DNA of 64,000 nucleotides, taken from Antedon mediterranea (taxonomy: Eukaryota > Echinodermata > Crinoidea > Comatulida > Antedonidae). Location of the stretch: NCBI RefSeq assembly GCF_964355755.1, contig NC_092674.1:20734001-20798000 (forward strand), written 5' to 3'. This document shows, piece by piece, positions 1-58,500 of the stretch (the stretch's first letter is position 1; the number at the start of each line of letters is the position of its first letter). A program made the translations under genes and the position numbers. Under the pieces are notes generated by a model. The model made no database searches. It had not been told where the DNA came from and saw only the letters and a program-made list of their open reading frames with translations.

Positions 1-1650
1 GATACTGTTTGTAAACCTACATAGTTATACATAACTTTTCATATAGTTTGTACTTAACTTAGCCTTAAAAATGTTTGGTAATTAAACATATAAATCTACA
101 AATGTTCGTGTCATAACGCCTCGCCTTTGTTGTGTAGTCTACAAATTTGTTTTAGTGTAATATTATAATGTTAACATGGCACACAGTCAAAGAGTGTATA
201 CTATTGTAATTTGTATTGTACGTTAAAATTGAATATTAATTGATAGGCTCACATTGATATCTTCATAATTTTACTTTAATTATGTTGAAGACGTTTGCTA
301 GTTATTCGACAGCACAACAAGGGGAACACATAAAGAGAAAGTGCATGCAGGCCTATTGAGCGAAACAACAGTAAGAAATTGTGTTGTTAGTTGAGCAGAA
401 ATATATAGTTTTAATTTAAAATACTTTATTTTTTTCGGGTCAACCAAATTGTGACTTTTTGTGGTCACCAATCAGAAACTACATAATTATTACCTTAGCC
501 ACAAGCTCTGCAACTTTTTCTGGCTGTTTTACTTTTTTTTATTTAGCTTTTTGCTTATTTTATTTTGTATCTCTAATGAGACCCAGCCACTAATCCAACA
601 GCATTGTCATTATTTTCAGTAATTTGCCTTTGGATATATTGTGTATATATATAAATTGCGCACATTCACATAATGTGCATATTTGTGCGCATGTGGATAC
701 GAAATAATATATATTACTCCTTGCGGAGGGTTGAAACTTTCCGATTGCTCTTGTTTTAGGACTGGTGCGGTCAGGAGAAGATATATTTAACTATAACGGC
801 AACAGAAAATATCGTTATTTATAAGTACAGATTGGTATAGTTCATAATGATGTCATTGTTTTCACTTAGTTTCTTTTTTCAGGTTTATTCTTTATGCATA
901 AGCCATAAATTATACATTGGCCTATTATTTTAATACATAGAAAGTGTAGTGTAGTGCAGTTATTTCCGAGACAACCAATTAAACACAGTGTACTTTTATT
1001 CTGTGATTTCCGTATCCCTACATCAAGGTGATCGCCTCACCCGCTCTAAAGCTTGAAGCGAACCCAAATCAATACGCCTACAAGATACTGTATATACCAT
1101 GACATTTTAAAAATCATGTTTGTGTGTACAAATGTACGTACTAGTCGAGTCAAACTGTTTCATTACCCCAAAAAAATTTGCAAGAAAATGTTTTTTGATG
1201 GATTACAATAAAAAATGGTCTCAAAAAACATATATCAAAAGTTTACCAAAGTTAAAAAATTTGACGTTAAAAAAGATGGCCGCCAATTTTTGAAAATCGG
1301 TAACCGCTTGTATAGTAGACAGCTATACTATACTGTACAACGATGCGTTTGATATAATCAAAATGATGGCCTTATGTGAATGGATGACTGTGAATAATTT
1401 GATTATTCATAATCGTTCATTCACATAAAGGCATTATTTTAATCTCATGAAATGTTTATATGGTGCTCGTACAACAATATTGTTCGAGATATTGATGTAA
1501 TATTCACACGAATTTGGTGATATGAAGGTATGATAAAAATATGACCCCACATATTTTGTTTCCTTGTTTCTGTGGGCCCATACTCAATCTATTCAATGTA
1601 CAGATTGCAGATTCTGCTAAAACTACAGAATGTCTGCAAAGTAAAAATTG
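1..1650. other. Non-coding flank, part of a duplicated block
   Basis: No convincing coding exon is visible. The first 75 bases resemble 27064-27130, with the shared order of a GATACTGT-type start, a TAAGCCTACATA-like word, a GTTTGTACT-like word and TTTAGCCTTAAA. Scattered words around 265-450, such as GAGCAGAAATAT followed by GGTCAACCAA, recur near 27480-27550. I infer that this flank is one side of a segmental duplication whose other copy is split by insertions between 27 and 38 kb. AT content is high and nothing else is recognisable apart from a hairpin at 1359-1440. Confidence 0.5.
1359..1440. repeat. Hairpin with arms of about 35 bp
   Basis: The left arm starts with AAAATGATGGCCTTATGTGA. 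The right arm reads the near-complement, TTCACATAAAGGCATTATTTT. A short central TTTGATTA loop separates them. It looks like a small MITE-type or fold-back insertion. No target duplication was identified. Confidence 0.6.
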
Positions 1651-1734
1651 TGTTATTATAATCCTAGGCCTATATTTAGGTTTGTAATGCCTATCCTACA
1701 ATTACCGTGAACCGGTATTGGTGGAATGCATAAT

Positions 1735-1840
1735 TCCTTGAATTTAATCAAGCTGAACTTTACTCCAAAGTTAGTGAGAACGTATTCGTCTCCTGACTTT
1801 TGTATCTTCAGATATTTATGGTCACTTTGCTTCTTGTACA
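1735..1840 (-). pseudogene. Relic exon, possibly of a fatty-acid-binding-protein gene
   Basis: The minus-strand reading contains KIQKSGDEYVLTNFGVKFS followed by LIKFK. The pattern GD-x-Y-x-L-T then F-x-x-IKFK resembles the second exon of FABP-family lipid carriers. The exon edge is visible by comparison with 38110-38200. There the acceptor is TTCGCAG before TGTACAAG; here it reads TTCGAAG, so the splice site is lost. No neighbouring FABP exons were found on either side. The family assignment rests on a short stretch and is tentative. That the exon is shared by the two duplicated flanks is clear. Confidence 0.35.
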
Positions 1841-2071
1841 CTTCGAAACAAAAATGTAGTCAATTAAAATTCATTCAATCAATTCTTAATAGGCAGACTT
1901 TTTTTTAAAAAATACGTCAACTTGGGTGCGCTAAACTAATCCAAAATATGCGAGTCTAAAAAATACGTCAACTCGAAGGCGATATTAATTTTCCAAAATA
2001 CGTCAACTTGTGGGAACTATTCATTTTCCAAAATACGCGAATTGTTAACAATATTTTTATTAACTTTCTTT
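1841..2071. other. Flank with repeated AAAATACGTCAACT words
   Basis: The words AAATACGTCAACTTG, AAATACGTCAACTCG and AAATACGCGAATT recur at short intervals. The matching flank at 38270-38330 carries AAAATATGCGAGTC and AAAATACGGAAAT. It looks like a degenerate short tandem repeat shared by both flanks. No gene is seen. Confidence 0.4.
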
Positions 2072-2955
2072 ACCTTCTAAAAATATATTTTAAAGCAATC
2101 AATTCCGCTGTTAAGCAATCACAAAACCCTTCACAGTCAATGAGACCACTTGTATTACAAGTATATGTAACCCCATTTCCATTTAGTCATCAAGTCAACC
2201 TTAAGTAATGCTTTACTGTTTGTTTCCTCTTTGAAATATCAGTAACTTTTGAGAACTTCATCATCTGTATTTTGACTCTTCTAAATCACTAATAGTTAAG
2301 TTAAAATATAACAATGCAATAGTGTTAATTTACATCACTCGGTGATACTGCTACTGATAGATTGTACATGTAATCATTTTTTTTAAACTTTGTTTCCACT
2401 GCTTGTGCGTTAGCAACTTTACTGATATTTACCATTTCTAGCAGTGTTTGGAACGAATGTTCAATAAAACCCAGTATTGTTATAGTCTGCATACCTCGTT
2501 TTGAGTAACATGAGAAAGAATGACTTGACTGGTAATATTGAGATCCAGTGAGTTGTTAATCAGATTATAACTAACCTGAATCGGTGAATCTGTGCATGAG
2601 TAGATAACAATGTCCCGTGTGCAATTTCCGTCCGGCACAGGACATTTTCTGGTTGAATATTCTCAATTTGATCTATTAACCTATAACCTACAGTACTTCA
2701 CCTTAGCTGTTTTTGACAATCTTCGCAACATTCATTTTTTTGAATAGGAATTCCGACTAATTTACTTATTAACATAATTAACATAATGTTTTCAATACAA
2801 GATTAACCACAGCAGTAAACACGTTATGGTTTAGACTAATGGTTACATTGGTCGTTGGTATATAAAAGCAGTATCTCAGTAACAACTGCTGATTCTACGG
2901 AACATATCCGTATACACATCTTCTACGTTGGTAACAACTTTACTGTTTTTCTTGT
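2072..2955 (-). pseudogene. Copy C: decayed fragment of the EGF/Sushi/Ig receptor gene
   Basis: This stretch aligns over most of its length with the middle of the large exon of copies A (about 5705-7265) and B (about 41820-43370). Shared words include AAGCAATCAATTCCGCTGTT, GATAGATTGTACATGTAATC and AATATTGAGATCCAGTGAGT. About 380-400 bp corresponding to copy A 6430-6830 are missing, and many short indels break the reading frame. The flanking domains, including Ig, EGF and Sushi exons, are absent. It is therefore a third, older and incomplete paralogue in the same orientation as A and B. No expression or function is implied. Confidence 0.85.
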
Positions 2956-4230
2956 TTTTTAAGTGAATTGAAATTATGTTTACCGTTACTTTTTACAATT
3001 AGGCTATTCATAAAATGATGATGAAGTTCATACTCACTCGACATTGAGTAATATATTGAAAGTCGGAAGGGTTTTGGATTTAAGGGAATCCATTAATAAG
3101 CGTATTAATTATTTGATACCCACTGATTTAATTTACTAAATATTTGAGGAAGCGAATTGTCAAGTCAAAATTATGTCAAGCGTTAGATGTAAGCCATTTG
3201 ATCTGGGCAAGCGGTCTGTTGTTATATTGCCTTGGTAACTCAAATTTTGCGATAGTCAGTTAGACTCTATCTACTGACAACTGCAGAATAGAGTGTCTGA
3301 GACGTCATACTGTTAAATACCGAAATACTAAAAATGTATAATTGTTATTGGAACAATATATGTTGGATACTTCCCGTACACATGACCCCTCCAATTAGAC
3401 TCATTCGTCACATTTACATTTTACTCGGATCCACGTAGCCTACTGAACAGCCTATGTAACTGGATTAATAACTAATTCAGTTAGGCTACCAACAAGTAGA
3501 TTATCTAGTACCGCAATTATTACTAAACAACCAATACACCCGTAACAATTTGGATAATTATTTAGGGCATTTCTCAAAAAATATGGTAGTTGCATTGATT
3601 ACAGATTATTTAATTTGTACAGTTTCAGTCGCTTGCTATTTACAGAGACTACATAACATTAATGTTGTTAGCATTTTAATATTATCAACAAACCAAACAA
3701 TATAGCAATATGAGTCTAGAAATATGACTATTGTCATTATCAAAACAGATATAACATTATATAATACAATGTGTTCAATTCTCGTTCCTAACACAGCATG
3801 TTTGCATCACATTATGAACGTATTATGAAAAACTCTGGAAACAGTCTTGCAACATGGTAATCTAGTCTTCCTGTATTAACCTAAAGATGTGTGGATGAGA
3901 TTTCAATAAGTAATAAAATCTATTTCTACTGTAGCATCGAGAATAACAATTACGTTATAGAAAGCAACTGCAGGCAAGCATACATTGAAAGTTAAAACCC
4001 ATAATAAACCTATCTTAACCTTATGCTACGTTTATTTACAGGAATGTGCTTTTGTTAACAAAAGTTTAGTTGAAAAATAGTTTCTAATTTACGTAGAAAG
4101 TCAAAAAGTGCAGCAACTAGAAGCATCAACAATAGACACACAGTCTATTCGTGATACGTACGTTTTACGTTTTCTATAGTGTAGTCTAACAAATGTGATT
4201 TCTACATTATTTTCAGAAAGTTAAAAAGAA
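2956..4230. other. Intergenic, nothing recognised
   Basis: AT-rich sequence between copy C and the 3' end of copy A. I looked for counterparts of copy B's 3' exons (62-bp linker exon and transmembrane exon) and found none. Copy A may have lost them. Confidence 0.4.
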
Positions 4231-4322
4231 AAACCATTAGGTAAAATCTGTTTTTCCTTCTTCAGGCTGACAAACTGCATGCAGGTTTTCATTTCCACTG
4301 TATGACTCAGGAGGACAGTTCA
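4231..4322 (-). pseudogene. Copy A: truncated Cys-rich ephrin-receptor-like exon
   Basis: It opens after a good acceptor (TTCTTTAG) and encodes NCPPESYSGNENLHAVCQ, then jumps to PEEGKTDFT and a stop. Copy B has [22 protein letters not shown] at the same point. About 24 bp and the rest of the Cys repeat are lost. Confidence 0.75.
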
Positions 4323-4575
4323 CTAAAGAAGAAACAAAGATATTATGAATAAATGTACAAGGTAAAATACGAATTAGATGGTAAATACTTCTATGACAGT
4401 TTCGTTGTTCCTTACACGAACCGATTCTTCCAAAGATCAACATTATGACAATTTTATAAAAATATTTTAAAATATATATGATAAAAAAAGATAAATTAAC
4501 AGGTGACCATATAACAATTTAAATATTATTTGTTGTAAAACAGACCAACCTGAATTTAGAAAGATTTCAACTCAC

Positions 4576-7500
4576 CACATATGTATCCATCCTCGTGTGC
4601 ATATTGAGTCTTTGGACATATTGGACCATGTAAATCAGCATTAAATACTACCATTTCAACAGGTTCACCTCTGTGATCAAATATTTCACCAGGTTTCAGC
4701 ACGTTTTGAAGTTTAACAACTTTAGCGACGATATTGTCAATTTTGTCTTTCACTTTATACGCTGATTCTTGTCGACTTACATTTACCATATCAATGGATG
4801 TCACGTTGGTACTTGTTATTTCAAATGTTATTTTCCTTAGAAATGATTTACCATTTGGAGTCAACTCCTGATAGTTGAGACGCTCTAGGTCTGGGTCATC
4901 ACTACTAATGACTTTCTCAATAACATCGTTCAAAGTTTCATTTGTTAAATTAGTGGAATCTACTCGGTAAAGTCCTATGGATATTTTGCTGGAGAACTCC
5001 GGCATGGATATGTCAAGAACGTGAAGTCTTGCGGGATTTGAAAGCTTTTTTTTCGTGATTGTTTGATGCTTCACATACATACCATCCATCTTGGTTAAAT
5101 GTTGGGCTTAATATCTCAATAATCGAGCCATTCTGACCTGGGATTAGTTCCATATCTGACGAAGAAGCCTGAAAGTACCATTGATAGTCTGCCAGTGGCC
5201 GAGCGGACGCCTGACAAGTGAAATATGCGCCTTCAATATTACCATGTTCGATTACAGTGTCCTGCGGATGCTCGGTGATCAGTGGTGCAAATTCAATTGT
5301 GACGTCACATTGTAATGATGAAACCTTTGTAACTTTATTGCAAGCCTGACAACTGTAAGTTCCAGAATTAGATGAATTTACTTGGTTTAAATGCAATGAG
5401 TTTGAATTCATTCCACTCAGTATTTGGCCATTAAACTTCCAACTAAATGTTGGTAATGGATTTCCAGTGGCTTGGCACGTCAGATTAATATTCTCTCCTT
5501 CAATGGTAGTTAATTTTGGCTCAGGATGCTGAGTAATGATGGGAGCTTCTAAACATACATCATTATATTCTTTAAGAAAAATAACCTGAGTTAGTAAAAT
5601 CGTCCCACTTGTTTCTACTTCTTCGGAACTTGACAAATTACCATTCAGAAACGTTGATACATATTCATCGAGAGCGATGACATTCTGGTAACTCTCTGTA
5701 CCTTCTGACAAATATTTTAAGGCAATCAATTCCGCTGTTAAGCAGTCATAAATCCCTACGCAGTCAGTGACACCACTTGCATTACGAGTATATTGGTCCA
5801 TAACAGTTTTCCAGTTATTCATCACGTCAACCTCAAGTAATGCTTTGTTGTTTGTTTTCCTCTTTGAAGAATCAATAACCTTCGATAACGCATTTTTTTC
5901 AACTCCATCACCTGTATTGGAGTCTTCTAAATCACTCATAGTTAAGTTAAAAACTAACAATGCACTCGTGTTTACATCACTCGATGATACTGCTACTGAT
6001 AGATTGTACATGTAATCGTTTTGAAACTTTGTTTCCAATGCTTTTGCATGCACATTAGCAACTTTACTGATATTTACCATTTCTAGCAATGTCTGGAACG
6101 ACTGTTCAATAAAATCCAGTATGCTGGTATAGTCTGTACATCTTTCTTCGTTTTGAATAACGTGTTGATCTCGAGAAAGGCTGTTGTTAATATTGAGATC
6201 CAGTGAGTTGTTTATCAGATTATAACTGACCCTTTGTATCGGGGGCTGTTCAATAATTGCATTTGTGTCACGTCTATTACGATGTCCAAAACGTCTTTGT
6301 GTCATTCCTCTCCTTCTTCTTATTGATCTTGTTACGTCACCAAACAATTCCTCCGTAATGAAAAGTGCAGCATTTTGAATAGTATAATTGAAATTGTTGG
6401 CATCAATTATTACTTGAATCTGTACAGGAGTAGATGACAACGTTATATAACATAAAAATGGAATCATGGAAGTGTCTTCTTCAACTAGATCAATGTTAAA
6501 GTGAAGTTTCTTTAACTCTAAACTTTCTTCAAGTGATCCGTTTATCTGATGTTGTTTTATATTCAGACCTGCTTTAACATCTTTTCGTATTTTCCGCAAT
6601 GCATCTTGAGTATTGTTGAAGTGTTTCTTCAGTATCGTAACCCTGTCTGATACTTCTATTTGCTGGTTCAATGCATCGTCTAAATCGATTAATGCTTCGT
6701 GCAATGCTGCTTCTGAAACAGATGCACGTAAAACAGCATCATCCAACTCTTTAATTGGTATAGTAAGGTTGGTGGTTTCGTTTTTTATTTGATAAAATGC
6801 TCGACTTCGTTGTTTTCGGCAATGTTCATTTTCCCGTACACAATTGGCGTCCGGAACATGTACGCTGCAAGGAACACTTTCTGTTTGAAGCTTCTCAATT
6901 TGACCTATAATTTTATACCTAGCACATGTGCTACACGACTGCAACGTAGCTGTTACTAAAACAGTTGTTTGACATTCTTCACAACATTCACCTTTTGAAT
7001 AGGAATCTCGAGTGCCCTTCTTTATGGAAGTTATAAAAGCTATTGTATCTAGTACTGCGCTAACAAATCTTTTCAATACAAGATTAACCGCAGCAGTAAC
7101 AAGCTTTATAGGGTTTAAACTAAGGGTTTTGACGGGCGTTGGTATATAACAAATATCACAGCAGCCGGTCGTCTCAGTAACAACTGTTGATTCTTCTTTG
7201 TTAATACAACATTCATATGGAACATTTCCATACACATCTTCTACGAAGGTAACAAGTTTACTTCCGGGTAGACATACACCACTACATTCATGTATTTCAC
7301 ATACATTGGCCAGGGCTTCTTCTAATTCTCTTGTGTCATGGCGTGAATCTTCAAATGTTTCGCGTGCTATTTCAACTTCGTTGTTTGCAGCAACCAAACT
7401 TCCCAAAGCGGACTCATGTTTCATGCTAGCTTTAGCAAGATTGTCAATGAGATTGGCTTCTTCCTCCAATGCATCCCGCAATGTTGATGTTGCTATTTCG

Positions 7501-8610
7501 AGAGCCTTTGAAGCTTGGCCAATTGTCTTCGTTCGCTGTCGTCAATTGATTTTTGCGATAAAGAGATGATTTTGTTTTTCAGTGTTCTTCCTAATGATAA
7601 TGGACCTTCAACCGTTGCTTCTCCATTTACAGATAGCACCATCGACTCAAATGATGTCATTATTGAAGTAGCGTTACCCATCACATCAAATAAACCCCAA
7701 AGCTTACTAAAAAAACTAAAATAAATCCCGTTCATTTTCAGGTGCATAGTCGTGTATTGTTCAATTCCAAGAAGATTGGTGTTAATCGGTATGCTTCCTA
7801 TCCAATGATTAACGTTGCATGCAAATGCTAATCTCAATATCGATCCAGCTGGAACACGGATGTATTTATTTAGGGTTTGAGTATCAGAGTATTCTCCTGT
7901 CATACATACATTAGGTACAGGTTGATTATCCTGGTGTTGGTCTTTAAAGTTTGTACAATTGTTAAATGAATTTAAGACTTTTACCCCTAATGACGGAAAA
8001 CAGAGATTTTTTGGCAAACATATGCTGAAATAAATGCGAAAACCAGACCCCGATGTCTTTAAATAACCGAAAAGATTCTGAACTTCTACAAGAACTTTGT
8101 TACTAAGATGCTCTATTCCAGCTGTAAAATTTAAAAGATCAGTTTGTAAATTGATTGTACCGGGGTTGTTGGACAGTTTGTCATTAACATTCCAAAGCGT
8201 ATTTATAATAACCTTACATTGTAGACGTAACTCAGCCAGAGACTTAGCAATCTGTTTCAAATATTTTTGAGTTAACGCTTGGAAATACTGATTAATATTG
8301 TAATTTAATTAATTGACTGTAGACAGCAGATTGGAATACAATTCGTCATATTCAACAGTCATTAGTTGTTCACATAACTCTTTCAGTTGAGATGATATGT
8401 TATGAAGATCACTTATAATCTCTGTCATATTGCTAAGATCTGATGGAATGCCAAGCTCCGGTGACAAATCGTAGTCCACAGACACTTCTACAGTAGATTC
8501 AACAGTATTTAGCAGCCAGGAAAAAGGTGTGTCATAAAAAAATTCAAATGATGTAGATGATTCCATTGTTATTCCTCGATCATGAAACAAAGGCCCATCT
8601 ACAAGAAAAC
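4576..8610 (-). pseudogene. Copy A: large exon, frame broken several times
   Basis: Counterpart of the 4026-bp exon of copy B, with the same donor (GTG|GTGAG) and acceptor (ATTAG|GTTTTC). Three long open pieces remain, at about 7493-8260, 5013-7481 and 4556-5089, separated by lesions. These are a stop at 8309-8311 (copy B has Asp), a 2-bp shift near 7520-7535, and a 1-bp shift in a T8 run near 5047. Coiled-coil-like Glu/Lys-rich stretches, paired Cys (CCINKEE, CCDIC), a basic site RRRRGMTQRR near 6300 and two Ig domains at 5080-5560 are still readable. The Ig part is nearly identical to copy B. Confidence 0.85.
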
Positions 8611-8752
8611 CTAATATAAATTTAACTGTTAAATTATATTCATTGTAATCATTAGAATTCTTAAATACAGTATATCACAATGATAATTATTGGCAGGTAA
8701 ATAATAATCTGCTTATTATAAGTTAACAACAACGTCTGTAAATAAAACTCAC

Positions 8753-8903
8753 CACCAACACTGACGTACAAACTCGGCCTACCAGCCTTATTTGAGATGA
8801 AATTCAATACTATGTCTTCACCAAGCATCTTCCAGAATAAGCTAATTTTGGAATTTCCGAATTGTTGCAACGCCCAGCGTTCTATAAATAGATGACTGAA
8901 TAA
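8753..8903 (-). pseudogene. Copy A: 151-bp linker exon
   Basis: Same length and splice phases as copy B 56125-56275, with acceptor TTTTCTAG and donor GTG|GTGAG. It encodes a conserved hydrophobic stretch containing [17 protein letters not shown]. In copy A the following intron is only 142 bp. In copy B the same intron holds an 11-kb transposon. Confidence 0.8.
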
Positions 8904-40574: not shown

Positions 40575-43500
40575 CTAAGAAATGAAAAGTAACATGTGAT
40601 TGTTCTACCTTTTCAAAACTACATAAATAAAAACAGAACATACGAACATTTTAATTTAAACAAAATCAACAACAAAATCAACTCACCACATATATATCCA
40701 TCAGTGTGTGCGTACTGAGTGTTCGGACATATAGGACCATTTAAAGCAGCATTAAACTCTACCATTTCAACAATTTCACCTCTATGTTTGAATGTTTCAC
40801 CAGGAGTGAGCATATTTTTAAGCTGGACTACTTTTTCATGGATGCTTTCAATCTTGTCTTTAACCCGATATGCTGATTCTTCTCGGCTTACAGTTACCAC
40901 ATCAATAGATGTTGCATTTGTACTTTTTATTTCAAATGTTGTCTGCCTTAGAAATGATTTACCATTTTGCGTGAATTCCTGATAGTTGAGACGTTCTAAT
41001 TCTGCATCAGTGTTACTCATGACATTTGCAATAGTATCTTCCAATGATGTCTTTTTTGACTTGAAAGAGCCTACACTGAAAAATGATATAGCGATTTTGC
41101 TCGAGAATTCTGGCATCGATATTCCTAGAACGTGAAGTTTTGCCGCACTTGATAGCTGTTGCCCGTGATTGTTTGAAGCTTTACATGTATACCATCCATC
41201 TTGGTTAAATGTTGGGCTTAATATCTCAATAATCGAGCCATTCTGACCTGGGATTAGTTCCATATCTGACGATAAAGACTGAAAGTACCATTGATAGTCT
41301 GCCAGTGGCCGAGCGGACGCCTGACAAGTGAAATATGCGCCTTCAATATTACCATGTTCGATTACAGTGTCTTGCGGATGCTCGGTGATCAGTGGTGCAA
41401 ATTCAATTGTGACGTCACATTGTAATGATGAAACCTTTGTAACTTTATTGCAAGCCTGACAACTGTAAGTTCCAGAATTAGATGAATTTACTTGGTTTAA
41501 ATGCAATGAGTTTGAATTCATTCCACTCAGTATTTGGCCATTAAACTTCCAACTAAATTTTGGTAATGGATTTCCAGTGGCTTGGCACGTCAGAGTAATG
41601 TCCTCTCCTTCAACAGTAGATATGTTTGGTTTTGGGTGCTCGGTAATGACGGGAGCTTCTAAACATATATCATTGTAATTTTTGAGAAAAATAACCCGAG
41701 TTAGTACAATCTTTCCACTTGTTTCTAGTTTATCGGAGCTTGACAAATTAGCATTCAGAAAAGTTGATACATATTCATCGAGGGCAGAAACATTCTGGTA
41801 AATCTCTTTACCTTCTGACAAATATTTTAAAGCAATCAATTCCGCTGTTAAGCAATCATAAAACCCTTCGCAGTCAGTGATACCACTTGCATTACGAGTA
41901 TATTGATCCATAACAGTTTTCCAATTAGTCATCAAGTCAACCTCAAGTAATGATTTGGTGTTGTTTGTTTTCCTCTTTAAAGAATTAATAACTTTTGACA
42001 ACGCTTTTTCCTCAACTCCATTACCTGTATTGGACTCTTCTAAATCACTCATAGTTAAGTTAAAATATAACAATGCACTTCTATTTACATCACTCGGTGA
42101 TGTTACCACTGATAGATTGTACAAGTAGTCATGTTGAAACATTTCTTCTGTTTCCAGTGATTTTGCATTAGCAACTTTACTAATATTTACAGTCTCTAAT
42201 AGTGTTTGGAAAGAATGTTTAACAAAATCCAGTATGTTGTTATAATCTGCACACCTCTCCTCATTTCGAATGACATTTTGATCTCGCGAAAGGCTGCTTG
42301 TAATATTGAGATCTTGAGAATCGTTCACCAGAATATAACCGATCTTTTGAATTGGTGGCTGTTGAATAAAGGTAGTGATGTCACGTCTTCTACGAAATCC
42401 ATCACGGTTTTGGTTTACTCCTCTCCTTCTTCCAACTGATCTTGTTACGTCACCAAACAATTCTCCCGTAATGAAAAGTGCAGCATTTTCAATAGTGTAA
42501 TTTAAATTGTTGGCATCAATAAATACTTGAATCTGTACAGGAGTAGATGACAACGTCATATAACATACAACTGGAATCATGGAAGTGTCTTCTTCAACTA
42601 GATCAATGTTAAAGTGAAGTTTCTTTAACTCTAAACTGTCTTCAAGTGATCCGTTTATTTGATGTTGTTTTATATTCAGACCTGCTTCAACTTCTCTTCG
42701 TATTTTGTCCAATGCATCTTGGGTATTGTTGAAATGTTTCTTCAGTATCATAACCCTATCTGATACTTCTTTTTGCTGGTTCAATGCATTGTCGAGATCG
42801 ATTAGTGCTTCGTTCAATACTGCCTCTGCAACTGATGCACTTAAAACAGCATCATCACACTCTTTAATAGGCACAGCAAGGTCGGGTGTTTCTTTTTTTA
42901 TTTGATCAAATGCTCGACTTCTTTGTTTTCGGCATTGTTCATTTGTTTGCACACAATTGGCGTCCGGTATATGAGTACTGCAAAAGACTTCTTCTGTTTT
43001 AGACCTCTTTATTTGACCTATGATTTCATAATTGACACATGTGCTACATGATTGCAACGTAGCTGTTACTAAAACTGGTTTTTGGCATTCTTCACAACAT
43101 TCACCTTTTGAATAAGAATTTCGACTGCCTTTCTTTATGGACGTTATAACAGCTATTACACCACTAATATATTTTTTCATAATAAAATCATACGCAGCAG
43201 TAATAAGTTTTATAGGATCTAAACTCATGGTCTTAACCGGGGTTGCTAAATAACAAATATCGCAACAGGCGGTTGTCTCGTTAACAACTGTTGATTCTTC
43301 TTTGTTAATACAACATTCATATGGAACATATCCATACACATCTTCTACGTAGGGAACAAGTTTACTTCCGGGTAGACATACACCACTACATTCATGTATT
43401 TCGCAAACATTGTCCACGGCTTCTTCTAAATCCCTTGTATCATGGCGTAAATCTTCAAGCGTTTTGCGAGCTCTTTCAACTGCATTGTTTGCTTCAACAA

Positions 43501-46500
43501 TATCTTTTAAAGCAGAATCATGTTTATCCCTAGCTTCAGCAACATTAGCTGTTTGAATGGCTTCTTCTTTCAATGTATTCTGCAATGTTGATATTGCTAT
43601 GTCGAGGGACTTTGAAACTTGGCTAAGTCTTCGTTCGCTATCGTCAACTAATTTATGGGATAAAGAGATTATGTTGTTTTTCAATATTTTCCCTAATGAC
43701 AATGGACCTTCAACTGCTACTTCTCCATTTGCAGATAACACCATCGACTCAAACGATCCCAATCTTGATGTAACGTTACCACTCACATCAAATAAACCCC
43801 AAAGCTTACCAGAAAAACTAAAATAAATATCATCCATTGTCAGGTGCATAGTGGTATCTTGTTCAATTCCAAGTAGTTTTATATACACTGGTATATTTCC
43901 TATCCAATGATTAACATTGCATGCAAATGCTAATCTTAATTTTGATCCAGCTGGAACACGGATGAATTGATTGAGGGTTTGAGTAATAAAGTACTCTCCT
44001 GTCATGCAGACATTAGGAACGGGTTGATTAATCTGGTGTTGGTCTTTTAGGTTTGGACAATTGTTAAATGAATTTAAGACGTTTACCTCCAAAGACGGAA
44101 AACAGAAATTATTTGATAAACATATTCTAGAGTTAATGCGGAAACCAGACCCTGACGTAGTTTCATAAACGAAAAGATTCTGTACTTCTACAAGAACTTT
44201 GTTACTGAGATGCTCTATTCTAGCTGTAACATTAAGAACATCATTTTGCAGATTATTCTTACTGGGATTGGTAGACAATTTATCATTAACATTCCAAAGA
44301 GAATTCAAAATACGTTTACACTGTACACGTAAATCTGCCAGAGAAATAGCAATCTGTTTCAAATCTTTTTGGGTTAACGCTTGAAAATACTGATTAATAT
44401 TGTAAGTTAAATCATTGACTGTAGATAACAGAAAAGAATATAAGTCGTCATTTTCAACAGCCAATAGTTGTTTACTCAATTCTTTCACTTGAGGTGGCAT
44501 GTTTTTAAGATCACTTATAATCTTTGTCATCATGTTTAGATCTGATGGAATATCAAGATTCGGTGACAAATCATAATTCACAAACACTTCTACAGTAGAT
44601 TCCTCAGTATTGAGTAGCCAGGAAAAAGGCGTGTCATCAAAAGATGCAAATGACGTAGATGATTCCATTCTTATTCCTCGATCAGGAGAAAAGAATCCAT
44701 CTACAACAAAACCTAAACAGACACAACATTATCATTAAATTGTATTGATTAACATTTTAAAAAAGATTGTAGAGATGTCACTGTACGCTACAATAGTGCA
44801 ACCTAGCAAGTAATTTTTTGTCGTTCTTGTCTTTCTTGTTTACTTAATAATATCAGGGAAGAGTTAAAGAGTTAAATTACATGGAAAACTCACGGACCTT
44901 ACATCAAACGTTACAACGCGCGGCACCACCGATTCGATTACATAATCAACGGATGTTCGCTCAAGACGAAGTAATTGCTTTGCGCATGCCCAGAAGCGAT
45001 TGTTTTCCGGTCGGTGACCGCTAGACTTGCTCCAAGTCTGTATTTATTGTCTTTTTTTATTTCATTCAACACGTCGTCGTTTTGATTTTTGTCTGAAAAT
45101 ACAGACTTGTGAAACACGTATAGAAATCGATTTGCAGACCGCAAACCTCCGATAAGAATGACGTAGGTTATCATACCGTATTTAGCTATGTGGGGCGGGT
45201 TTATGTAAATATGTGGCTGTAGAATCAACCAATCAACGGACCTCATTTTGGGGCTCTAATTAATTGCATTGTGCAATACAGGATGAAAGTTATCGCGAGC
45301 GAGTTTCGTGGTGGTAACACTCGTTATTGAGCTAGTATTAAGTAGCCTAGGCTTACATCACCGATAGACCCATAGCCACAAAAACATGGATGAGTTCCAA
45401 AAGAAAACACCGAAAAAACAACATACGCGAGAAGTACTGTCTCCGCACAAACTTCAGTGCGTATGTATAGTTTGTGGGGAAGCAACTCTGAAATCAAGGA
45501 GGCTTTCATTATTCCATGGGGAGACAGCCTTGGACGTTTTCAAGCGATTAGACATCATCCTTAGCCCTCAACAATGTACGTCACTCACCCAAATCAAAGG
45601 TAGCGGAATATCGTGTTGTCGATTATGCGACATGAAAATAAAAACGATACATAGAAATATTGAGAAACTAAAAGGGCAAGTTAAAAACACATTTGCTCGC
45701 TTTGTAAAGCAGGTAACCGTTTTAAAAAGAGCTGCCCCAGCAGTGCCTTCTTCTAATACAAAAAGAAGCTTGGAAATGGAGCTGAGCTTAGGATGTCGCG
45801 GAGAAAGCCCCTCACCACTCGGTAGCATCCCTCTCAACGAGAACAGGGGATTAAGTTTAAATGCTGGAAGTACTAGTAATACTATCAAGGTGCGTTTAAA
45901 TACTTAGACCTATTCTTTATTGTTCATAACTAATATATTTTTATTTAGGTATTACATATTTAGTAGTAGGCCTAGCTAGTTCGGCTAGCAATTATGCCTA
46001 GGCCTAGCCAATAATTAATAAATTCACAATCAAAATAAATATTAAATAAATGACAATAATATAATTTATATTATTATTTATAATACAAAAAAAATCGATT
46101 AAAAAATGATGCATTCCGATTGAATTTTGGGTCATAAAAACTTTTCTTTTTTAATATTAACAAATACAATAATAAAAATGAATTAACTCAAAGATTTATT
46201 ACAGTATAAATCTAGAGGCCAACATTTAATCAATAATATAACTTAATAGAGTGTTACTGTGTGTGGTTTTTGTAGATTATTTTACCGTTTCCTGGTGGTA
46301 CCCAGACAAGAACAGCAAAACACAAATTCAACACTGTCCTCAAGCAGATTGTTGTTGGTGATTCTTCCAGTATTGGTAGAGCTGTTTTAAGTTGTGATGA
46401 TCATCTTAAGGAATGTGTTTTTACAGAATGTTGTAATATCATCAAACAGGAGGTAGGCATGTAGTATAATAATAACTTTATTTGGGATGATGTTTTGCAA

Positions 46501-49500
46501 AAACAGAACAAACTAACCAGTAGTGCATCAAAATAATTAAAAAAAATACAAATAACTAAAATACAATGTAAAACAATACAAATATTAATTTTTATATGAT
46601 ATGTTATTTACAAAGTAACCTTGTTTCTGGTACTGGTAATACTTAAAAACTGTCAGAAAATGCAAGTTTTTTTTTCATTCAATATTTTTTGAAGAGGGAA
46701 CTATGTAAATGAATTATAAAATTTGTGTTGAATTATATAGATTAGCAAATTGCAATTGTTTGCAGGTATATACAATTTGCTCAAAAGTGGATGAGTCAGT
46801 GCTCAGAAAAACAACAAAGGAAGAGCTTGCCAAATTTAGTTGGGATGTCTTCCACGAAGAGCTGAAGGAAAAAGCACCTTATTTTCTACAGTTCATTATG
46901 ACTGCTGTCAGCAACATCAAACAATTACAACGTAATGTTAAAAAAAACACCACAACCGTGATGCCAGCAATTTTAGATTGCATTTCCAAACTTCTAAACA
47001 TCTACAATGAGCAAATGAATGCAATGAAAAAGCTTAAGGGAATAATTCTTAAGAAAGCTGGGCTCAAAAAGGTAATAAACCTCAATTTCAATAATATACT
47101 TTTATTTGACTTGTTACGTTGGATATTGCTGTTGGAAAAACATGTAAATGATAAGTATGAAAATTCTGTATTTTATTAGGTTGGATTTCAACGGCTTGCA
47201 GCACTGTATGACACCATGTCATACAGGTCTGCAAATGATACACTTGAAGCCTTTGGTGAATCATTTGCAGAACCACTTCTAGAATGGAAAGAGACAGAAG
47301 AGAAAGTACATCAAGAAGAGAAAGACTTAATAATAGACAGATTGCATGATGGTCACCACAACTCTAGGCTGAAAGATTTCAGACAAGGAATGCCACCTGG
47401 TTATTCATTTACAGGTAAATTCAGCATGCATTAGTTAAGTTTATGGTGACTAACCTAACCTTTTTTAATTAATAAAACTGAGATTTAATATTTCTCAATT
47501 TTAGTTATGTAATGATGACATAATTGAATATAGTGGAGCTGTAGCTTGTAAACATGTTTGTCTTCCAATCCCAGTGTCCAGGAATCAATTCTGGCCATAA
47601 TTGATTATCATGTATCATGTACATGATATCATTGGGTTGTGGACAGACACACAGTGATATATTTTATTTTTTAACAAGGCGACAATGTTGATGTCAGATT
47701 CAAAGTGAGGCATATGACTTCAAAAAGACAGCATAAAGACCACCATCTCTACCAGTTGATTGCATATCAAAATCGCATAAGTGGAAAGCACCTTCCCGAT
47801 GAAAATCCAATTTTAGATTCAAAATCTGTACCATGCACTTTATTCCTGCCATCGACTACAGACAATGAGATATTGACAAGTGAATTTGTGTGGCTCATTT
47901 GTCAAATCTGGACAAAGTACATTCCTTCACTTAGTTGGTTCAAAGAATTTATGCCTAATTGCATTTCTCATCCATTTATGAGAGACGTGAAATCAAAGAC
48001 CAAAAAGGTAAATTTTAAATATGCATGAAAATGACAAAATATGACTGAGTGTCAGGCAAATTATAAGTTTTGTCCTGGCAGCCAATTAAAACATGCAGAA
48101 CACAATATTGCAATGTCATAGCAAGGTGTTTTGCTCACTCCCATCAAAAAAAGTTAAATTGTTTACTTTTTGAGAAACAAATTCAAGAACCATTTACACA
48201 TTTCATTTAAATCAACATATTCAAAATACTTATTTGTTTACATTCACAGGTACACCTTGGAGTCTTGGAAAAGAATGAATCTAAAGAGGAGGACATGCTT
48301 GATATTTGTAAGTACTTGCATCAATATGTACCAGGTCATTCTGATGATGCCACAAGTATGCAGAAACCAGTAAAGGTATTATTATTATATTTAATATTAG
48401 ATTTTAAAAGGAGATGTTTGTTTTCTTCAATAGTAATTAATGTCGTTTAACAAATTCATTTATTATGTAAAATTAATGAATCAAATGGTTTTTAATAAGT
48501 GCAACTTGAATTACCAATATTTGGATGAATAAATCAAGTTTTCATAATTTATCAAACAGATTCTGAGTGGTGGTGACTATCTCACTTTTGAGAGACACAA
48601 AGGAGCACAGTCGACTATGCAAGATGCTCGAACACCATCAAAACGATTGGAAGGTTTGATTCCGAAAATGGAGGACTTTCATCAACAAGCAGAATGGTTA
48701 GAAGCTGTAAGTCTGTAGTTCAGTATTGTACTTAATATACAGTAATCAACCATACAGACCTAAATCAATAAGCAATAAAGTGGAACCTATTTCCTCACCT
48801 AGGATGTAGAGTTAGATGTGTGTAGGGCTGAAAAATGCATAAACACACCTTAAAATTACCTCGGTTTTATTACATATCCTAAAGGCCAAAGTCTGTGTAA
48901 ATTGGCCTTACCAGTAATTGTGAAGACTTTCACATCAGACATATCATGATATTGATACAATTGTTCATGTATTCTTTCAGGTATGTTGGAAGCAGCTATA
49001 TGACACCAGATCAGCACGTGACATTGGTACTCTTTATGCTGCAAGAAATGTATTAAATGCCAGAAATGTGACAAAACATCCTCATAACTGCTACTATGCT
49101 GCATCTGACTTGTTGGATAAGTACACTGATAGCTATCTTGTATCTGGTGCTCTATCCTTTTTTGGTATGGCTAATGTTAACTCTGCACCATCAGTAAATG
49201 CATTTATTGGATCCCCATTAGATGTTGTTGGTAAGGAAGAGTATGTCAAGTCGACTATCACTAACTTTATAGGGACTCACATTTTTTCAGAGACGCCTAC
49301 TATTTGTGAAATCTCAACAGAAAAAACAGATTTTCAATGCAAGTTCTGTACAAAAGTGTACAAACGATCTACAGCACTAATCAAGCATGAAGAAAGAGTG
49401 CACAGGTTCCGACGAACAAAAGAATGCCCTCCAATACCTACACATGAGGAAGACCACATTTACAACTATACCAGAAAAGTACTGATACTCTCCATGCTTC

Positions 49501-52500
49501 GTTGCAACCACAACAATGCAATAAAGATGGGAGATGGTGGTAGAGTAGTCAGATTATATAAGTACTTCCTGTTATTTTACAAAGCAACCTCTCGCACACC
49601 AAAGTATGGTTATGGAACTTTTGAGACACTAGCCCAGATATTATGTTTGTTGACTCCAAGGCAAGCATTCAACCTTACATGGAACAGATTTGTAAATTAC
49701 AGAGGTCAACGAGACACTAATTTTCCAATGGACTTAGACGTTGAACATGCAAACAAACAGTTTAAGGAAGAATTGCATTCTTATAGAGGTGAGGTCACTG
49801 AGAAAACTATCAACCGTATAAGCAGAAGTTTGTTTTTCACCGAGGAAATTGTTAACAATTTTGACAAACAATCAAATGTCAAAAAACCAAGTGGGAAACA
49901 TAGTGATGTCGACTTCACTGAAGATGTACTTACTCTAGTAGCTCAGTTCAGCAACCTTGACTTATTTAAGTATATTCCGGGTAGGGCGTACACCACATAC
50001 CCATACGTTGAAAGCAATATGCTGAATAAGCTGGACATGGAGAAAATGAAAACATGGATGGATAAATCACTAAAGACAATTTCCAGAAAACACTATTACC
50101 CTCAACGCAGCAATTGAATGAAGGTGGGAGTGAATGACTGTAGGCCTATGTAAATTCTGTTACACTTTATCTTTAGGATTGCAACAAAAGTAAAACTACA
50201 GTCATTACTGTATAAAACATCTTCACAACACATTTATTGTGCTATTAATTTGGAGTAAATATTATAATTAAATCATCTGGAGTGTTTGTTCAGCCAGATT
50301 AACTTGATAATTTATACAAAATGAGTGTTATAAATGAAAGTTATGAAGGGATGTGCAATTTCTTTTTCCTAAATTTATGTGAATATCGACATGCTTACTA
50401 ATCATAATTTTAAAGTTTACCACAAAAGAGTTGATGTCTTGTCTTGTTTGCAAAATATGACCAATGGAAAAAAAAGGAATTTTACATTTAATACAACAGG
50501 CAGATTACTGTACTTTAAACAAAATAAAACTACTGTACTGTATAAAACGTTTCTTGACATATCTCATCATCTGTTAATTATCAGTACTCTATTGTTGAAT
50601 TGTCCTAAGGTTGTCTGTATACCACTACAGTAGACTACCTGTTGAACTTGAATAATGTAGTATTTATTGATTAAAGTATAACAACATATATCAATGTATT
50701 GTATGCATTAAAAAATTAGCGTTATAAATAGAGTGGAGTCATACAGTATTGTATATTATTATATACAGTAGATAGTTATGAAGTATAATTTGTTGCTTAA
50801 CATTGCTATACAGCCTCATTAGCAAAAAGAAAGGTTAACATTAAATCTATTATAAACCATTACCAATTACTTAATCATCATCACTGCTATTTAGTAAAGG
50901 ATGTTTTGCATGATTGTCAGAATCACTTTCACTGGACTGAGTTGAAGACTCAGATGAAGAAATGTTGTCACTATGTAACTGGTCATTAACTAATATCTGT
51001 GAATCACTAATTACAGATTTTACAATATCCCAGGAACATTCTGCATGTTCAGATGAATAAAATAAGAAATGTTGCATAAACACTGAACGATTTGGTATGT
51101 AGGGCAAATCCTTTATGATATGTTCAATAAGTTGATTACTGTACTGTGTTGAAATATTTACATTTGTGAATAATTTGTCATCTGTTAGACCACCTGCCAG
51201 TTCATTTCTATATCTATATAAATCATTTCTAATCTGGGATGTCTTTTCGATAGATACACAATTCACTTTTTTATGAAAACAAGCAGAATGCCGTGCATCT
51301 AGTTGATGGATTATCTTTTTGATGGAAATTTCTAATTGGTTGTCGTTATATGTGCATTTTGTATCACAGTTACAAGCACCATTGCATGCACATTCACATG
51401 TGCACACGGCAGCACAGACATCGCAGCACAAATGTTTCACCACACTGCATGGTTCACACTCAAAAAAGCTCATTAGTGTTTTTCTTCTACATTTATTACC
51501 CGAAATATATTCTTTCATTGATTCAGAAGTTCTACTTGTACTGTGGCTGTATTTAAGTAGTATTGCAAAACTCTGTTTCAATGAATCACGCCCGGCACGG
51601 CCAGTTTCTTGTAAATAATCATCCAGGTCTGCTGGTGGGCCAAGATGAATTACTGTTTGCAGTCCCTTGACATCCATTCCCATACCAAATGCAATTGTTG
51701 AAAATAAGACACGGATTACTCCATTCGGATCGGCAAATGATGACATTACGCTCTCTTTAACATCAACATCTGTTCCCTGCTGGAACATTGCCACAAATCT
51801 TCCTCTGTCATCTACATGTTTACATGTGGCGTCATATGCTTCAACACCTAAAGCCGTCATGAACATTTCGTAGAGATCTCTACAGTGACTCCTCCTCCTA
51901 CAAAACACTATTGTTCTGGATGCTTCTATTTTTTTAATTTTTAATTCTTCAATGATTGGCACAAATATGCTAAATAAAGCATCAACATCACGGAACCCTT
52001 GCTTCGTCTTAATTACTGTGTACCGAATGTTTGGTTTATTTACACCCAAATCCACTAACACTGGGACTTTCATGTGTAGATCATTAATAATAGTTGCTCT
52101 TGTTTTCTTGCTAGCAGTTGCTGTAAGAGCAATCATTGGTACAGACATTGGCAATATAGACCGTAATTCACCAATCCTGGCGTAGTGTTCACGAAATGGG
52201 ACACTCTCTCCTCCAACGGTGTGACCCCTATAAAATATGGAATACACAATTATTACAATTTTCTTGTTGTGCAAAACATATTTTCACAACAATACAATAA
52301 ACCCCAGACTTATTAATTAAAACATTGTTTGAAAGTTATTTATTTAACTACAGGTAGATCGATCACTCAAAAATGAACATTTTAATTTTCAACAGACTCA
52401 ACCTCAGCTACTCTAGTTTAATTGTGCTTAAGTTACTGTCTGTATGTAATACTGTTTTTCGTTATCCCAGTCCCATCGATTGACTAAAATGTCTTAATGT

Positions 52501-55500
52501 TGAAATATCAATCTTACGAAAAAATCTTACCACTTTTCTATACAGTGGCTCTCATCAACAAACACAGCTTTAACAGATTTTTGGTATGGATTGGACAACA
52601 ACATCTGCCTATGAGTTGTTAAAACAGTTTCAGGGCTTGAAAATACAATGTTGAACTTCCCACTTCTTAAATCATTGTCATCGCCAGTTTTACCAATATA
52701 AGTTGCATTCAGCTTCTTCTGATTCAGAGATTTGGTCTATAAAAAAGATACTACTAGGCTAGCACAGAATATAATCAACACATCATCATTCATAGGCCTA
52801 GGCCTAGGCCCTAATACTATTTGAAAAAAAAATATTATTATTAGTATAGGAGTAATAGTATGCCTAACCTGCCTAAATAGGCTACAGACATACATAGAGA
52901 GATAGATAATTAATAATAGAGGGGAATCATAATGCCTATACATACCTGTTCTTGCATGAGCGATAATAACGGTGTAATCACAAGTACAATGTTACAGGTT
53001 GGAGCAGCTATTCCGGTTGATAGATGTTCTAGGACAAACGGTAAAGCTGAGTAGCAAAAAGATTTACCACTTCCAGTAGGCGAACACAACAAAACATCAT
53101 TCCCTCGAATTATTTCTTCTAAAACCTTACATTGGTGGGTTTTCGCGTTTTCATATCCAAATAACTGAGTCACAGAAGCGATGCTTATCTTCACGTCTTC
53201 CATAATACAGTACTTCTTCGGCAATTGTTAATTGTAATTGAGTTGTCAATTTGTATTGTATTAATATTAATAACAAAAGAAAAGACAAAAGCACACTACA
53301 CACGTGAAAAATTTAACACCCTGGTGATCTTTTCAACGTAACAGAGCGCATGCGCAATCTAAGTTGTTAGATTTCTCAACATTCTGAAATATGAATATTA
53401 AAACAGTGTACGAGTGAGTAGCCAATCGCATGCAGCTGAAACTAGTCAACCGGATAATCGTATGCACCAAGAATTCTTGGTGTCAAACCACGTGACTTGT
53501 GCGTGTTTCCCCAGACGGAGTATCCAACTCAAGTAATACACGTATGAAACGCCATATGTGCAAAAATATTTATATTTTTACTAATATTAAGACAAAACTC
53601 CGTCTGGAGCCCAGACTAGGTGACCGCATGCAACAACACACTACTGATGACGTCTTCGTCGAACCGCCCCCCCCCCCTTGGTAACCTGACGCATTAAACT
53701 TTTTCGATATATATCGCGACGTAGTCGTCGTCGTATTTGTATTTTCCGTTTTTAGAAAATTTCCGTACGCACATTTCAAGTATATGTAATAGGCTAGGCC
53801 TACTTGCTACACCAGGTCCTACTTCAATCTAGGGCTAGTAGGCCTAGGCCTAGGCCTAGAATGTAATAGGCACTCCTTCCTAGCTAGGCCTAGGCTAGTT
53901 ACTTTAGCCTAAAAAAAAATAGGCCCTACTCAACTACTATTAGGCTAGGCCTACAATCTTCTCTTCTGGCTAGCTACCTAGGCCTATTTAGAATTGATAT
54001 GCTTACCAAACTAAGTTAGCCTGATCCTGTTTTAACAATAACAGTGTATTTGTAGGCTACTCGGCCATTAAAAGTATCTCCTGTGCGCGCCAGTTGCATG
54101 TACCGGTAGCCTACCTAGGTCTAGGGCCAGGCCCAGAGTTCTTCCCTGCCTGAAAATAATTCTGCATTGTATTATATGATTTTATGTGAACTTTATTGTG
54201 CTGGGAGGTCAAAAGTATAGAAGAAACTAATTCTTTCCTATAGACTACACCAATGACTGGTTGAAGTGACGTTCAAAGGGGGAGGGGGTGCTTTTCACAT
54301 AAAAGATGATGTGTATTATTTGTTTTTTAGAAACTTAGATTTAGAAATGGAGAGGTTTTTGTCGCTAAAGGGAATGTGTAATTCCAATATCAAACAGAGT
54401 ATTATCACACACTGGTGTAACTTAACAAATAATAAAATAAAAGCAAAAGACAAAAAAAGTTTAAGGTTGGAGTTGTAAATTTATTTTGTATAAAAATCAG
54501 TACTGTATAATCATGTCAATAAAGGTATATTTCAAAGTATGTATTCATCAAATTATGTGTTTTGTTTTTAGTCAAACCAACATACAATTTAGAATATACT
54601 TTATTTACAAAACAATTTTTTATTAAAATTGTTACATGATGTCATAATGTTTATCAATACCAGAGTAAAAAAAGAGATTCTTCGTAAGTACTGAAATATA
54701 TTTTGTTCCGTGACATTCTTTATCTACTTCAAATGGCTGAATCAACAGATTACAAAACAAGTATCAATTTAAAATAACTAATAAGTTATGACTGTCAGAT
54801 TTTCCCATCTCCCAAGGCAACTCCTTTCTATACTGGAATAGTTTTCTAGAGCATCCTGGTTGTTTTTCTCACGGAAAAAGTACACAATCCGTCTTGTACC
54901 ATCAGGCTTCTTCTGTGAAAGGAATATCTTGGCCATGTCAACAAATGAAGAAACTGTGGATGAAAAAAGGGAAACATTATTATATACAGTATTCAAATAA
55001 AAAAATTCAGAAACCAATACCTTCTGTAGGCAGCATCTTGGGTACCATCATTGGGATGAATTGCACTTGGATGAAGAGAGGACGGCCTAGGCCCTAGCTT
55101 ATTAGCTAGCCTAGCCCTAGGTAAACCTACTCTAATAGAAGTTTGTTTTAATTAGGGGCCTAGGTCTAGAACTTTCATTTTATGTTAGCCTGGTATTTTT
55201 GACTTATTTAACAATTGAAAAACTAAAACAGGTTGCTTGACAGAATAGCAATACAGTAGGTGGCCGATAGGCCTAGCAACAGCGTCTATCTGGAATAGCA
55301 TGTGGGCGGAGCTTACCAGCATCTCGCCGCCGATCTTAGTCTCTAAAACTGAGTAAAGGTGGTTCAGAAATCTTTTATTTTTGGTATTTGGTCGGAATTG
55401 GTCGCAAATAAAAACTGGACCACAATATATATAGATGTTATTGGTTTCACATATCTGAGCTAGACATTAGGCAATTTTAGGCATATGTCTCTAAATGGCG

Positions 55501-58500
55501 AATGCTGATATAAAAGACGATACATTTCGTAAAAGGCCATTGCATACTTACCGAAAATCCACCTAAAAAGCGTGTTTCTTTGTGAAAATACACATTTTAA
55601 AAAATGGAAACGCTTGTGTAACGTGTGCAAAATAGTCTCAAATCAGTCGTTAAGTGTTAAAGCACTTATTTTATTTTAAAAAACCAAAAAGGATTTCTGA
55701 AAAAAAACGACTGGTAACAAGTCTAATGCCAATCTACACGTTGGTGGCAGCATATTCAGTAATTGGCGGTGCCGCGCGTATGGGACTAAAGGGGAAGTTA
55801 GTTTATTCACAAAACAATAGAGAACAATAGCGATTTAATTGCATTAACACGCCTCAACGGCTCGTGAGTTTTCCATGTAACTTAACTCTTCCCTGATAAT
55901 ATGGTCTCAAAACTATTTCTATTATTATATTATTTTTCATCTTCAGTTTCAAAGATATTGTTAGTTGTCTTTCTAACTAATTATTATGAAGTGATGGAGA
56001 TAGATATGTCAAACATTGTTTTCCGGTAATTCTTTTAAGAACTAATAACCTGGTGTACCGCAAACTTATATCAACATTTGATTCCGCCATGCAAACCTTC
56101 AAACAATATAAAAATGGAACTCACCACCGATACCGGCGTGCAATGTTGATCTTTTCATTTTATTGGAGATGAAATTCAGTACAATGTCTTCACCAAGCAT
56201 TTTCCAGAATAAGCTAAATTTTGAATCTCCAAATTGATGTAACACCCAACGTTGTATGAATAGATGACTAAATAACTGGAAAAATACACAACGAAATATA
56301 TAATTAAACGATACATTGAAAAAGTTTGACTGCTTTTAATAAGAATAATACAGAATTGTGCAATAGAAGATTTTACAAAGACATATTAAGGGAAATACAT
56401 ACATGTGCTGCATTTTCGAGGGAAACTTGAACATCTCCACTACCTTCAACTTTAGCAGATACTGTGTTGTTGATGTAGTACAGATATTGCAAATTTATCA
56501 AGATGCTGACTGTACCCTTTTCATTGTTATAATTAACATTTGAATTTCGCATACCATGTTTTGAAAAAGTCAATACATTTACATTAACTTTAAAGGAATC
56601 ATCATATTCTATATTCCTGATGTAACTCAAAATATCTCGTGAACCTTCTGGAAATACCATCATTACTTCTTCAGATGTCATTGTGCACATACCCACTATA
56701 AAACAGTACTTTCCTTTGAACGGTGGTTGTGGCAAAGATACATGTCTGCCTCCAATCATCAATTCTGCCTTCGAGAGTAATAAGACAGAGTACTGGCCAT
56801 CACTCACGATGGGAGCAGCTTCACACCACTCAATCGATTTTATTTCAGCTCCAAGAATACTCAATGCTGAAAAAGATGCTGTAGCATCCATGGGATCTAT
56901 GTCAACGGATAAAAACGTTATCCAATCTGGGAAGACATTTTCAAGTTGACGTGTGTAATTGCGATACAAAGAGTTATACCGAACAAAATATTGAATGCCA
57001 TCTAATGTTATGACTTTATTTTTGCATTTATCACGTGACAATGTAGTTTTCATGCTACTTGTGACTACCTGTCCGTGAAGACTAAGTGGTAATTCCAACA
57101 TTTCTGTAGCCAACGATGTAATTCCAGTAGTTTCTAAAGTATCGTTACCTTTCTTTGTCCATTCATTAGTTGAAACATAATATTTTCCTTTACACGTGGA
57201 ATAATTCGAGAGTACAAAACAACCCGATGGTAGACGATTGCCGGGTGTAACTATTTTGTCAACATTGTTCTGCGAGTTCTTCTTTAGAACGAATATTTTG
57301 TCATCACTTGGGGCTAGAAAATCCGCTGCTTCCCTTCCTCTTAGGACATATGATATTTTCACAAACCCCTGATTCATACCATGAACCGAACACGTAAGCT
57401 TATTTATTGTTGAAGAAAACGATAACTTGTCTGGCTTAAAAACTACTTTATCACAATCTGTCTTAATAATTAAGTCAAGCGCTTGCTTTGGTTTAGCAAT
57501 AAATTCCAAATCATACACATCTCCTACCCAAACATCAGGCCACTCTGGTGTTGTTACAAATCCTTCTGCGCATATCTTTCCCATATAACCAGTCCCAGAG
57601 CAATCACATGTATAACCACCTACCGCGTTTTGAGATGTCTGACAGAAACCGTTTACACATGGCGAGGGAGCACATACTTGGATTTCTAAAATAAAAAGTG
57701 TTTTTTTATGAATTATTATTTTTCTTTGAATAATTTGAGGCCATTATGACATATCGACACTTTCAAGTCTTTAATTAGTATAACATTTCTTTAAATAATT
57801 AAAATTAATTTATTACAAAGACGTTTTTAAAAATTAAATTAACATTATCTTACCAATACATTTTGGAAATGTGCTGTTCCAGTTTCCAGATAATAGACAT
57901 TTCGCCACAATATTTTTTTTCAATGAATATCCTGAATCACAGCCAAAACTGCAGTAACTTCCGACATGATTTTCGCATGGCAATTGAATGTAACCATTTT
58001 GAGGCGACGGAACATCGGGACAAAGAATTTCTGCAAGATATATATATATGGAAGTGTCCTTGAATGCTATTTTACTACCCAGGAACAGTGAAATGTCCAA
58101 AAATAATGTAAACAGGGTTATCAAGGATGCAAGTATTATACAGGAACTTAATAAGATGAAATTGTTTGTGGCACACCATGTTTAGTTCTGAAAAGAATTG
58201 TTTGAGTTTTTCTCGAAATTGTTACAGGCCACATTTTCTTTCGTGCCATACGACAATGTATACATACTTTGAGATTTCTTTTGTAACTGAGAACCTGATC
58301 TTAAAATGTTTCAAGTTTAATGCAAATAATTTTATTTTCACGACAAACCTTCGCAACGTGTTGCATGACCACTCCACACACCGTTCGATAGGCATTTTCT
58401 CGTTGAAGACCCCAACATACGATAATTCCATTCACACTCAAAGGCACACGTTTCTCCGGTTGTAAGTCCAGTACATGTCCGGTTGCCACCAAACGGTACA

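Follow-up and report, generated by a model that had tools for sequence, protein, structure and literature searches.

Which ends delimit a two-gene mobile element, and to which kind of DNA transposon does such an element belong? These questions are raised by a 64-kb stretch of the Antedon mediterranea genome (assembly GCF_964355755.1, contig NC_092674.1; hereafter the window, along which positions are counted), where inverted ends at 44854 and 55895 enclose a gene for a DUF6589 protein (gene A) and a gene for a RecQ-like helicase. The original prediction regarded 44854-55895 as one 11-kb transposon. Comparison with other copies in the same genome (354 Mb in 18 contigs) indicates a different arrangement, in which the gene-bearing unit is 45022-53618 and is nested in one copy of a non-coding terminal inverted repeat (TIR) element of approximately 2.4 kb, the carrier. 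Overall, the locus is best read as an AcademH-like autonomous cut-and-paste transposon inserted into an older, CAGGG-ended element, a reading to which we assign a probability of approximately 0.9.

Two independent insertions at one locus

The outer ends are genuine. Inverted pairs of 28 nt and 21 nt are found at 44854 and 55895, with CAGGG at one extremity and CCCTG at the other, and reading of the flanks reveals a 7-bp target duplication, ATAATAT, on either side (44847-44853 and 55896-55902). A further inverted pair, GCGCGGCACC and GGTGCCGCGC, is visible by eye directly inside these ends, as had also been reported. Searches of the genome with the left 107 bases and the right 136 bases of the carrier returned at least 16 and at least 22 matches, respectively. 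Ten loci, including the window, were cut from the left-end search; in six of the nine others (L002-L007) both ends were read. Matches at the other three, L008-L010, are confined to short parts, and these loci fall outside the both-ends reading. The six copies are located on contigs C9 (two), C8, C5, C4, and C2 (one each), are 2,419-3,197 bp long, and are 98.0-99.8% alike. With the window included, there are seven copies, of which five have a target duplication of 7 bp (window, C9:9385162, C8, C5, and C2) and two have one of 8 bp (C4 and C9:10917394). In the left end of the window copy (44854-44890), 8 nt are duplicated in tandem (AGAGTTAA), a duplication missing from the six other copies read.

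All six of these copies lack 45022-53618. When the 11-kb window unit was compared with them by BLAST, one common gap was observed, leading from unit position 168 to 8766 with a 9-bp overlap. Alignment of this gap with the empty copies places the 9-mer GGTGACCGC at both of its borders (45013-45021 and 53619-53627, both +); five of the six empty copies contain it once and unchanged, and the sixth (C9:9385162) differs from it by one substitution. Because the common gap is bounded by a sequence that is single in the empty copies, the stretch 45022-53618 was inserted here and duplicated 9 bp of its target. Comparison with the other copies assigns 44854-45021 (+) to the left part of the carrier, with its CAGGG end, and 53628-55895 (+) to the right part, with its CCCTG end, both non-coding. 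The two insertions are independent, and the carrier is very probably the older, having inserted with its 7-bp duplication before the nested element arrived with its own of 9 bp.

Alternatively, the 11-kb unit could be a single two-protein transposon with CAGGG ends, and the short copies could be its internal-deletion derivatives; the outer ends are, after all, genuine inverted repeats, a 7-bp duplication flanks them, and the six short copies have both of them. However, all six lack exactly the same stretch, which is bounded by a perfect 9-bp repeat and has ends of its own that recur elsewhere in the genome with 9-10-bp duplications. In addition, the second copy found with gene sequence (C9; L017 and L018) has no outer end: it starts at the base matching 45022 exactly, and its flank has no carrier match. 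A single 11-kb transposon is thus highly improbable. The original prediction looked to further copies with the same termini and to empty sites for support; six such copies were indeed found, but all are without the genes, which speaks against the 11-kb unit.

No transposase gene and no ATG-started open reading frame (ORF) longer than 65 aa were found in the carrier copies. The CAGGG ends and the 7-8-bp duplications resemble those of hAT elements, which encode their own transposase and generate 8-bp target duplications. Whether the comparison is made with hAT or with other TIR elements that have 8-bp duplications, the small size of the carrier ORFs makes a family assignment impossible. A role for the carrier as a component of a two-gene system was considered and is ruled out, since the carrier lacks an ORF above that size and is missing from the other gene-bearing copy. 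Separately, an 89-aa stop-to-stop open frame within the carrier (54778-55047, -) gives a weak match to RT_RNaseH that falls below the cut-off (E 0.0047).

Structure and coding content of the nested element

The nested element (45022-53618, +) is 8,597 bp long, as delimited by the empty sites, the start of the second copy, and the recurring termini. It begins with TAGACTTGCTCCAAGTCTG and ends with CCGTCTGGAGCCCAGACTA. Each terminus contains a palindrome: AGACTTG-CTC-CAAGTCT on the left (45022-45040, +; arms 45023-45029 and 45033-45039) and, read inward, GTCTGG-GCT-CCAGAC on the right (53600-53618, -; arms 53611-53616 and 53602-53607). Between them lie two long, intact, convergent spliced genes, as originally described; their splice sites are predictions based on open frames and consensus borders rather than on transcripts.

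Gene A (45386-50117, +) has eight exons and an intact reading frame of 986 aa: exon 1 (45386-45889), exon 2 (46276-46452), exon 3 (46766-47071), exon 4 (47180-47414), exon 5 (47679-48007), exon 6 (48250-48375), exon 7 (48560-48706), and exon 8, with the stop codon (48981-50117). A profile search of the protein against Pfam bears out the DUF6589 (PF20231) assignment (E 4.8e-38, over the cut-off). Exon 8 additionally encodes a C2H2 zinc-finger-like match (residues 726-749) that is under the Pfam cut-off. In a regional alignment of gene A with the proteins of three other loci (L019, L020, and L021, described below), D409, D412, H429, D565, H600, E722, D859, and E863 are invariant. In a longer alignment, D565 and H600, both in exon 7, are the only ones of these candidate residues to stay invariant; D409/D412 of the DNVD motif in exon 5 and D859/E863 in exon 8 are conserved in the regional alignment only. 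This layout of D, D, H, and E plausibly fits a putative DDE transposase in which the first and last acids are not secure, and the gene A protein is probably a DDE recombinase.

The helicase gene (53203-50871, -) has three exons and an intact reading frame of 605 aa. Exon 1 (52947-53203) includes the start codon and a GSGKS motif, and is followed by exon 2 (52532-52737) and by exon 3 (50871-52225), which encodes the Helicase_C domain and a Cys-rich tail and includes the stop codon. Both DEAD (E 1.1e-16) and Helicase_C (E 1.4e-15) are over the Pfam cut-off, and the closest PDB relatives are WRN, RecQ, and BLM (E down to 7.7e-36). With this DEAD and Helicase_C core, the protein is a predicted member of the RecQ helicase family.

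Relatives of the nested element in the genome

Searches with the termini of the nested element returned 977 (left) and 1401 (right) candidates at first look, and 40 were scored for each end; by these numbers the family looks large. A census was made of 30 loci, namely 10 non-window loci from the end searches (including the gene-bearing C9 copy, as L024) and the next 20 left-end matches by rank that were not yet included. Twenty-three of these are two-ended and seven are not. Among the two-ended loci, 18 have perfect 9-bp target duplications, three have perfect 10-bp duplications, and two have 9-bp duplications with one mismatch. The duplicated sequences are varied, and a perfect 9-bp match would be expected by chance approximately four times in a million per copy, if base use is even. 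Of the 23 two-ended copies, 22 preserve the left palindrome as AGACTTG-CYC-CAAGTCT and 20 preserve the right palindrome GTCTGG-GCT-CCAGAC, with an arm change in the other three. The two-ended copies are 874-992 bp long, apart from one of 672 bp (22 and 1 of 23, respectively), and because of these lengths none can hold the genes. Non-autonomous relatives of approximately 1 kb are common in this genome.

The gene-bearing C9 copy is approximately 99% identical to the window element over the aligned parts. It is broken by a length change in gene A exon 1 and by interruptions of exons 2 and 5, and neither a match to helicase exon 1 nor a right end was found in it. The window copy is the only one found with both genes and both ends intact, and for this reason may be active.

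Two further loci were observed. Fragments at C4:13452867-13460642 have 49-80% identity with the helicase and may be older relatives of the nested element. Similarly, a DUF6589 match over the cut-off (C2:20236350-20236766) lies approximately 2 kb from ends of the nested family (C2:20238499-20240242), and is perhaps a degraded gene-bearing copy.

Classification of the nested element

A 2020 work by Kojima is said, from its title as cited elsewhere, to report AcademH as a helicase-encoding Academ lineage of animals and fungi. According to PMC10045372, AcademH elements combine a transposase with a helicase and have 9- or 10-bp target duplications, whereas AcademX elements have a nuclease and 3- or 4-bp duplications, and the author ties these lengths to the encoded helicase or nuclease. 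Other papers describe Academ as a DDD/E superfamily (PMC9587614), report a DEAD/DEAH helicase (PF00270) and recQ_fam domains in fungal Academ copies (PMC6416283), and name AcademH among the origins of fungal helicase domains (PMC10799480). Two parts of the original prediction do not survive these descriptions. One, that no standard cut-and-paste superfamily normally carries a RecQ gene, is contradicted by the literature on AcademH (PMC10045372), fungal Academ (PMC6416283), and KolobokH (PMC9587614). The other, that the two-protein combination is unusual and previously unknown, gives way to the description of a helicase together with 9- or 10-bp duplications in AcademH (PMC10045372).

Both AcademH features are found in the nested element. 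The 605-aa protein is a predicted superfamily 2 (RecQ-like) helicase that stands beside the putative transposase, and the target duplication is 9 bp in the window and perfect at 9 or 10 bp in 21 of the 23 two-ended loci. These lengths and the presence of a helicase differ from the 3- or 4-bp duplications and the nuclease of AcademX. Membership of AcademH is thus most likely on the signature features of helicase and duplication length, not on comparison with Academ sequence; AcademH is known here by description, and the comparison covers these two features.

The target duplication of Kolobok elements is TTAA, whereas the census duplications are 9-10 bp and varied. KolobokH is ruled out by this difference in duplication length and sequence, and the probability that the nested element is a RecQ-bearing Kolobok element of any description is negligible. 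The resemblance is nonetheless real, as KolobokH too is a DDD/E transposon that encodes a RecQ helicase as an accessory protein, and the rhodophyte element Kolobok-1_CCri encodes its RecQ helicase on the complementary strand (PMC9587614). In that source, KolobokH is reported from fungi only. Its transposase family is a different one, and gene A matches DUF6589.

DUF6589 is also encoded elsewhere in the genome. A search of the genome with DUF6589 gave seven matches, of which six exceed the cut-off. Two of the seven belong to copies of gene A; of the other five, four (L019-L022) were examined and C2:20236350 was left out. L020:1662-9403 and L022:1609-9350 (on C5 and C8) are two copies of a 7,742-bp element, 99.987% identical over 7,744 bp, with 16-bp ends (TAGGCCATCGGGTGAA), 3-bp duplications (CCA and ACA), and one open frame of 1,247 aa. 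This AcademX-like element has probably moved very recently. Because its 3-bp duplications are of the length given for AcademX, DUF6589 can be linked to Academ. Against a Pfam cut-off of 27 bits, the whole-protein DUF6589 scores are 31.8 for L019 and 28.3 for L020, and L022 is also over the cut-off; DUF6589 is thus common to the nested element and to AcademX-like elements of the same genome.

Additional features of these loci were recorded. L019:3686-7876 (-) is an open frame of 1396 aa with DUF6589, and inverted arms of 552 nt are present at 961-1512 and 8324-8875; L021:4683-8462 (+) is an open frame of 1259 aa with a DUF6589 match. Clear element ends were sought for both of these loci and none were found. 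The C-termini of L019-L021 have acidic and GCD motifs in common, which by eye we take to recall XPG-type nucleases. A Pfam search gave no XPG match for these proteins, and the best results of a PDB profile search with the AcademX-like C-termini were lin-54 (E 0.053) and EXO1 (E 0.3). In the literature searched, no paper treating Academ, XPG, and transposon together was found, nor was any paper naming DUF6589, which says nothing of papers beyond that literature.

Several observations weigh against the AcademH classification and the role given to DUF6589. The assignment was made from described features, and the L021 protein, at 23.5 bits, is under the Pfam cut-off for DUF6589. Gene A and the AcademX-like L020 protein are 14% identical in DUF6589, the first D and last E of the candidate catalytic set fail in the longer alignment, and a nuclease in the AcademX-like proteins is not established from their sequences. 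The great distance of gene A from the AcademX-like DUF6589 proteins, and a comparison with AcademH by description, would also suit a lineage or superfamily that is new and separate from Academ, bears a helicase, makes 9-10-bp duplications, and has paired a DUF6589 recombinase with RecQ independently. Such a lineage is unlikely, since both features described for AcademH are present and DUF6589 is likewise encoded by an element whose duplications have the AcademX length.

Proposed mechanism, genomic setting, and significance

For the AcademH-like element, the DUF6589 protein would act as a putative RNase-H-fold DDE transposase that recognises the palindromic ends, excises the element, and inserts it at a target with a 9-10-bp stagger between the strands. 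Opening of the ends, or clearing of intermediates in transposition or repair, may be the task of the RecQ-like helicase. The same machinery probably moves the approximately 1-kb non-autonomous copies, which have both ends in common with the window element. From the earlier proposal of a DUF6589 recombinase assisted by RecQ, the pairing in one mobile element is retained, the recombinase role is probable, and the role of RecQ is plausible. A tentative and somewhat doubtful extension is that DUF6589 could be the catalytic core of Academ transposases in both the helicase and the nuclease lineages, and that the window copy helps, or once helped, to mobilise a large non-autonomous family; the palindromic ends of this family would be bound by the transposase and opened by the helicase.

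Long open frames on the same strand, with Ig-like and EGF-like stretches recognised by eye, lie on either side of the nested pair (40619-44728 and 56373-57743, both -). Because of these flanking frames, the nested pair may lie within an intron of a single large host gene.

The kind of element has, in all likelihood, been described already; added here are a precise account of the nesting, the palindromes at the ends together with the non-autonomous family that has them, and the suggestion of DUF6589 as the core of the Academ transposase. The unit of a helicase-bearing transposon is corrected, in that its ends, target duplication, and insertion site are now defined with exact empty sites. If DUF6589 proteins, which Pfam lists as of unknown function, are Academ transposases, as these observations suggest, genome annotation would be improved. 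Finally, the apparent intactness of this copy, together with the many short non-autonomous ones, would make it a good starting point for asking why such elements have a helicase.

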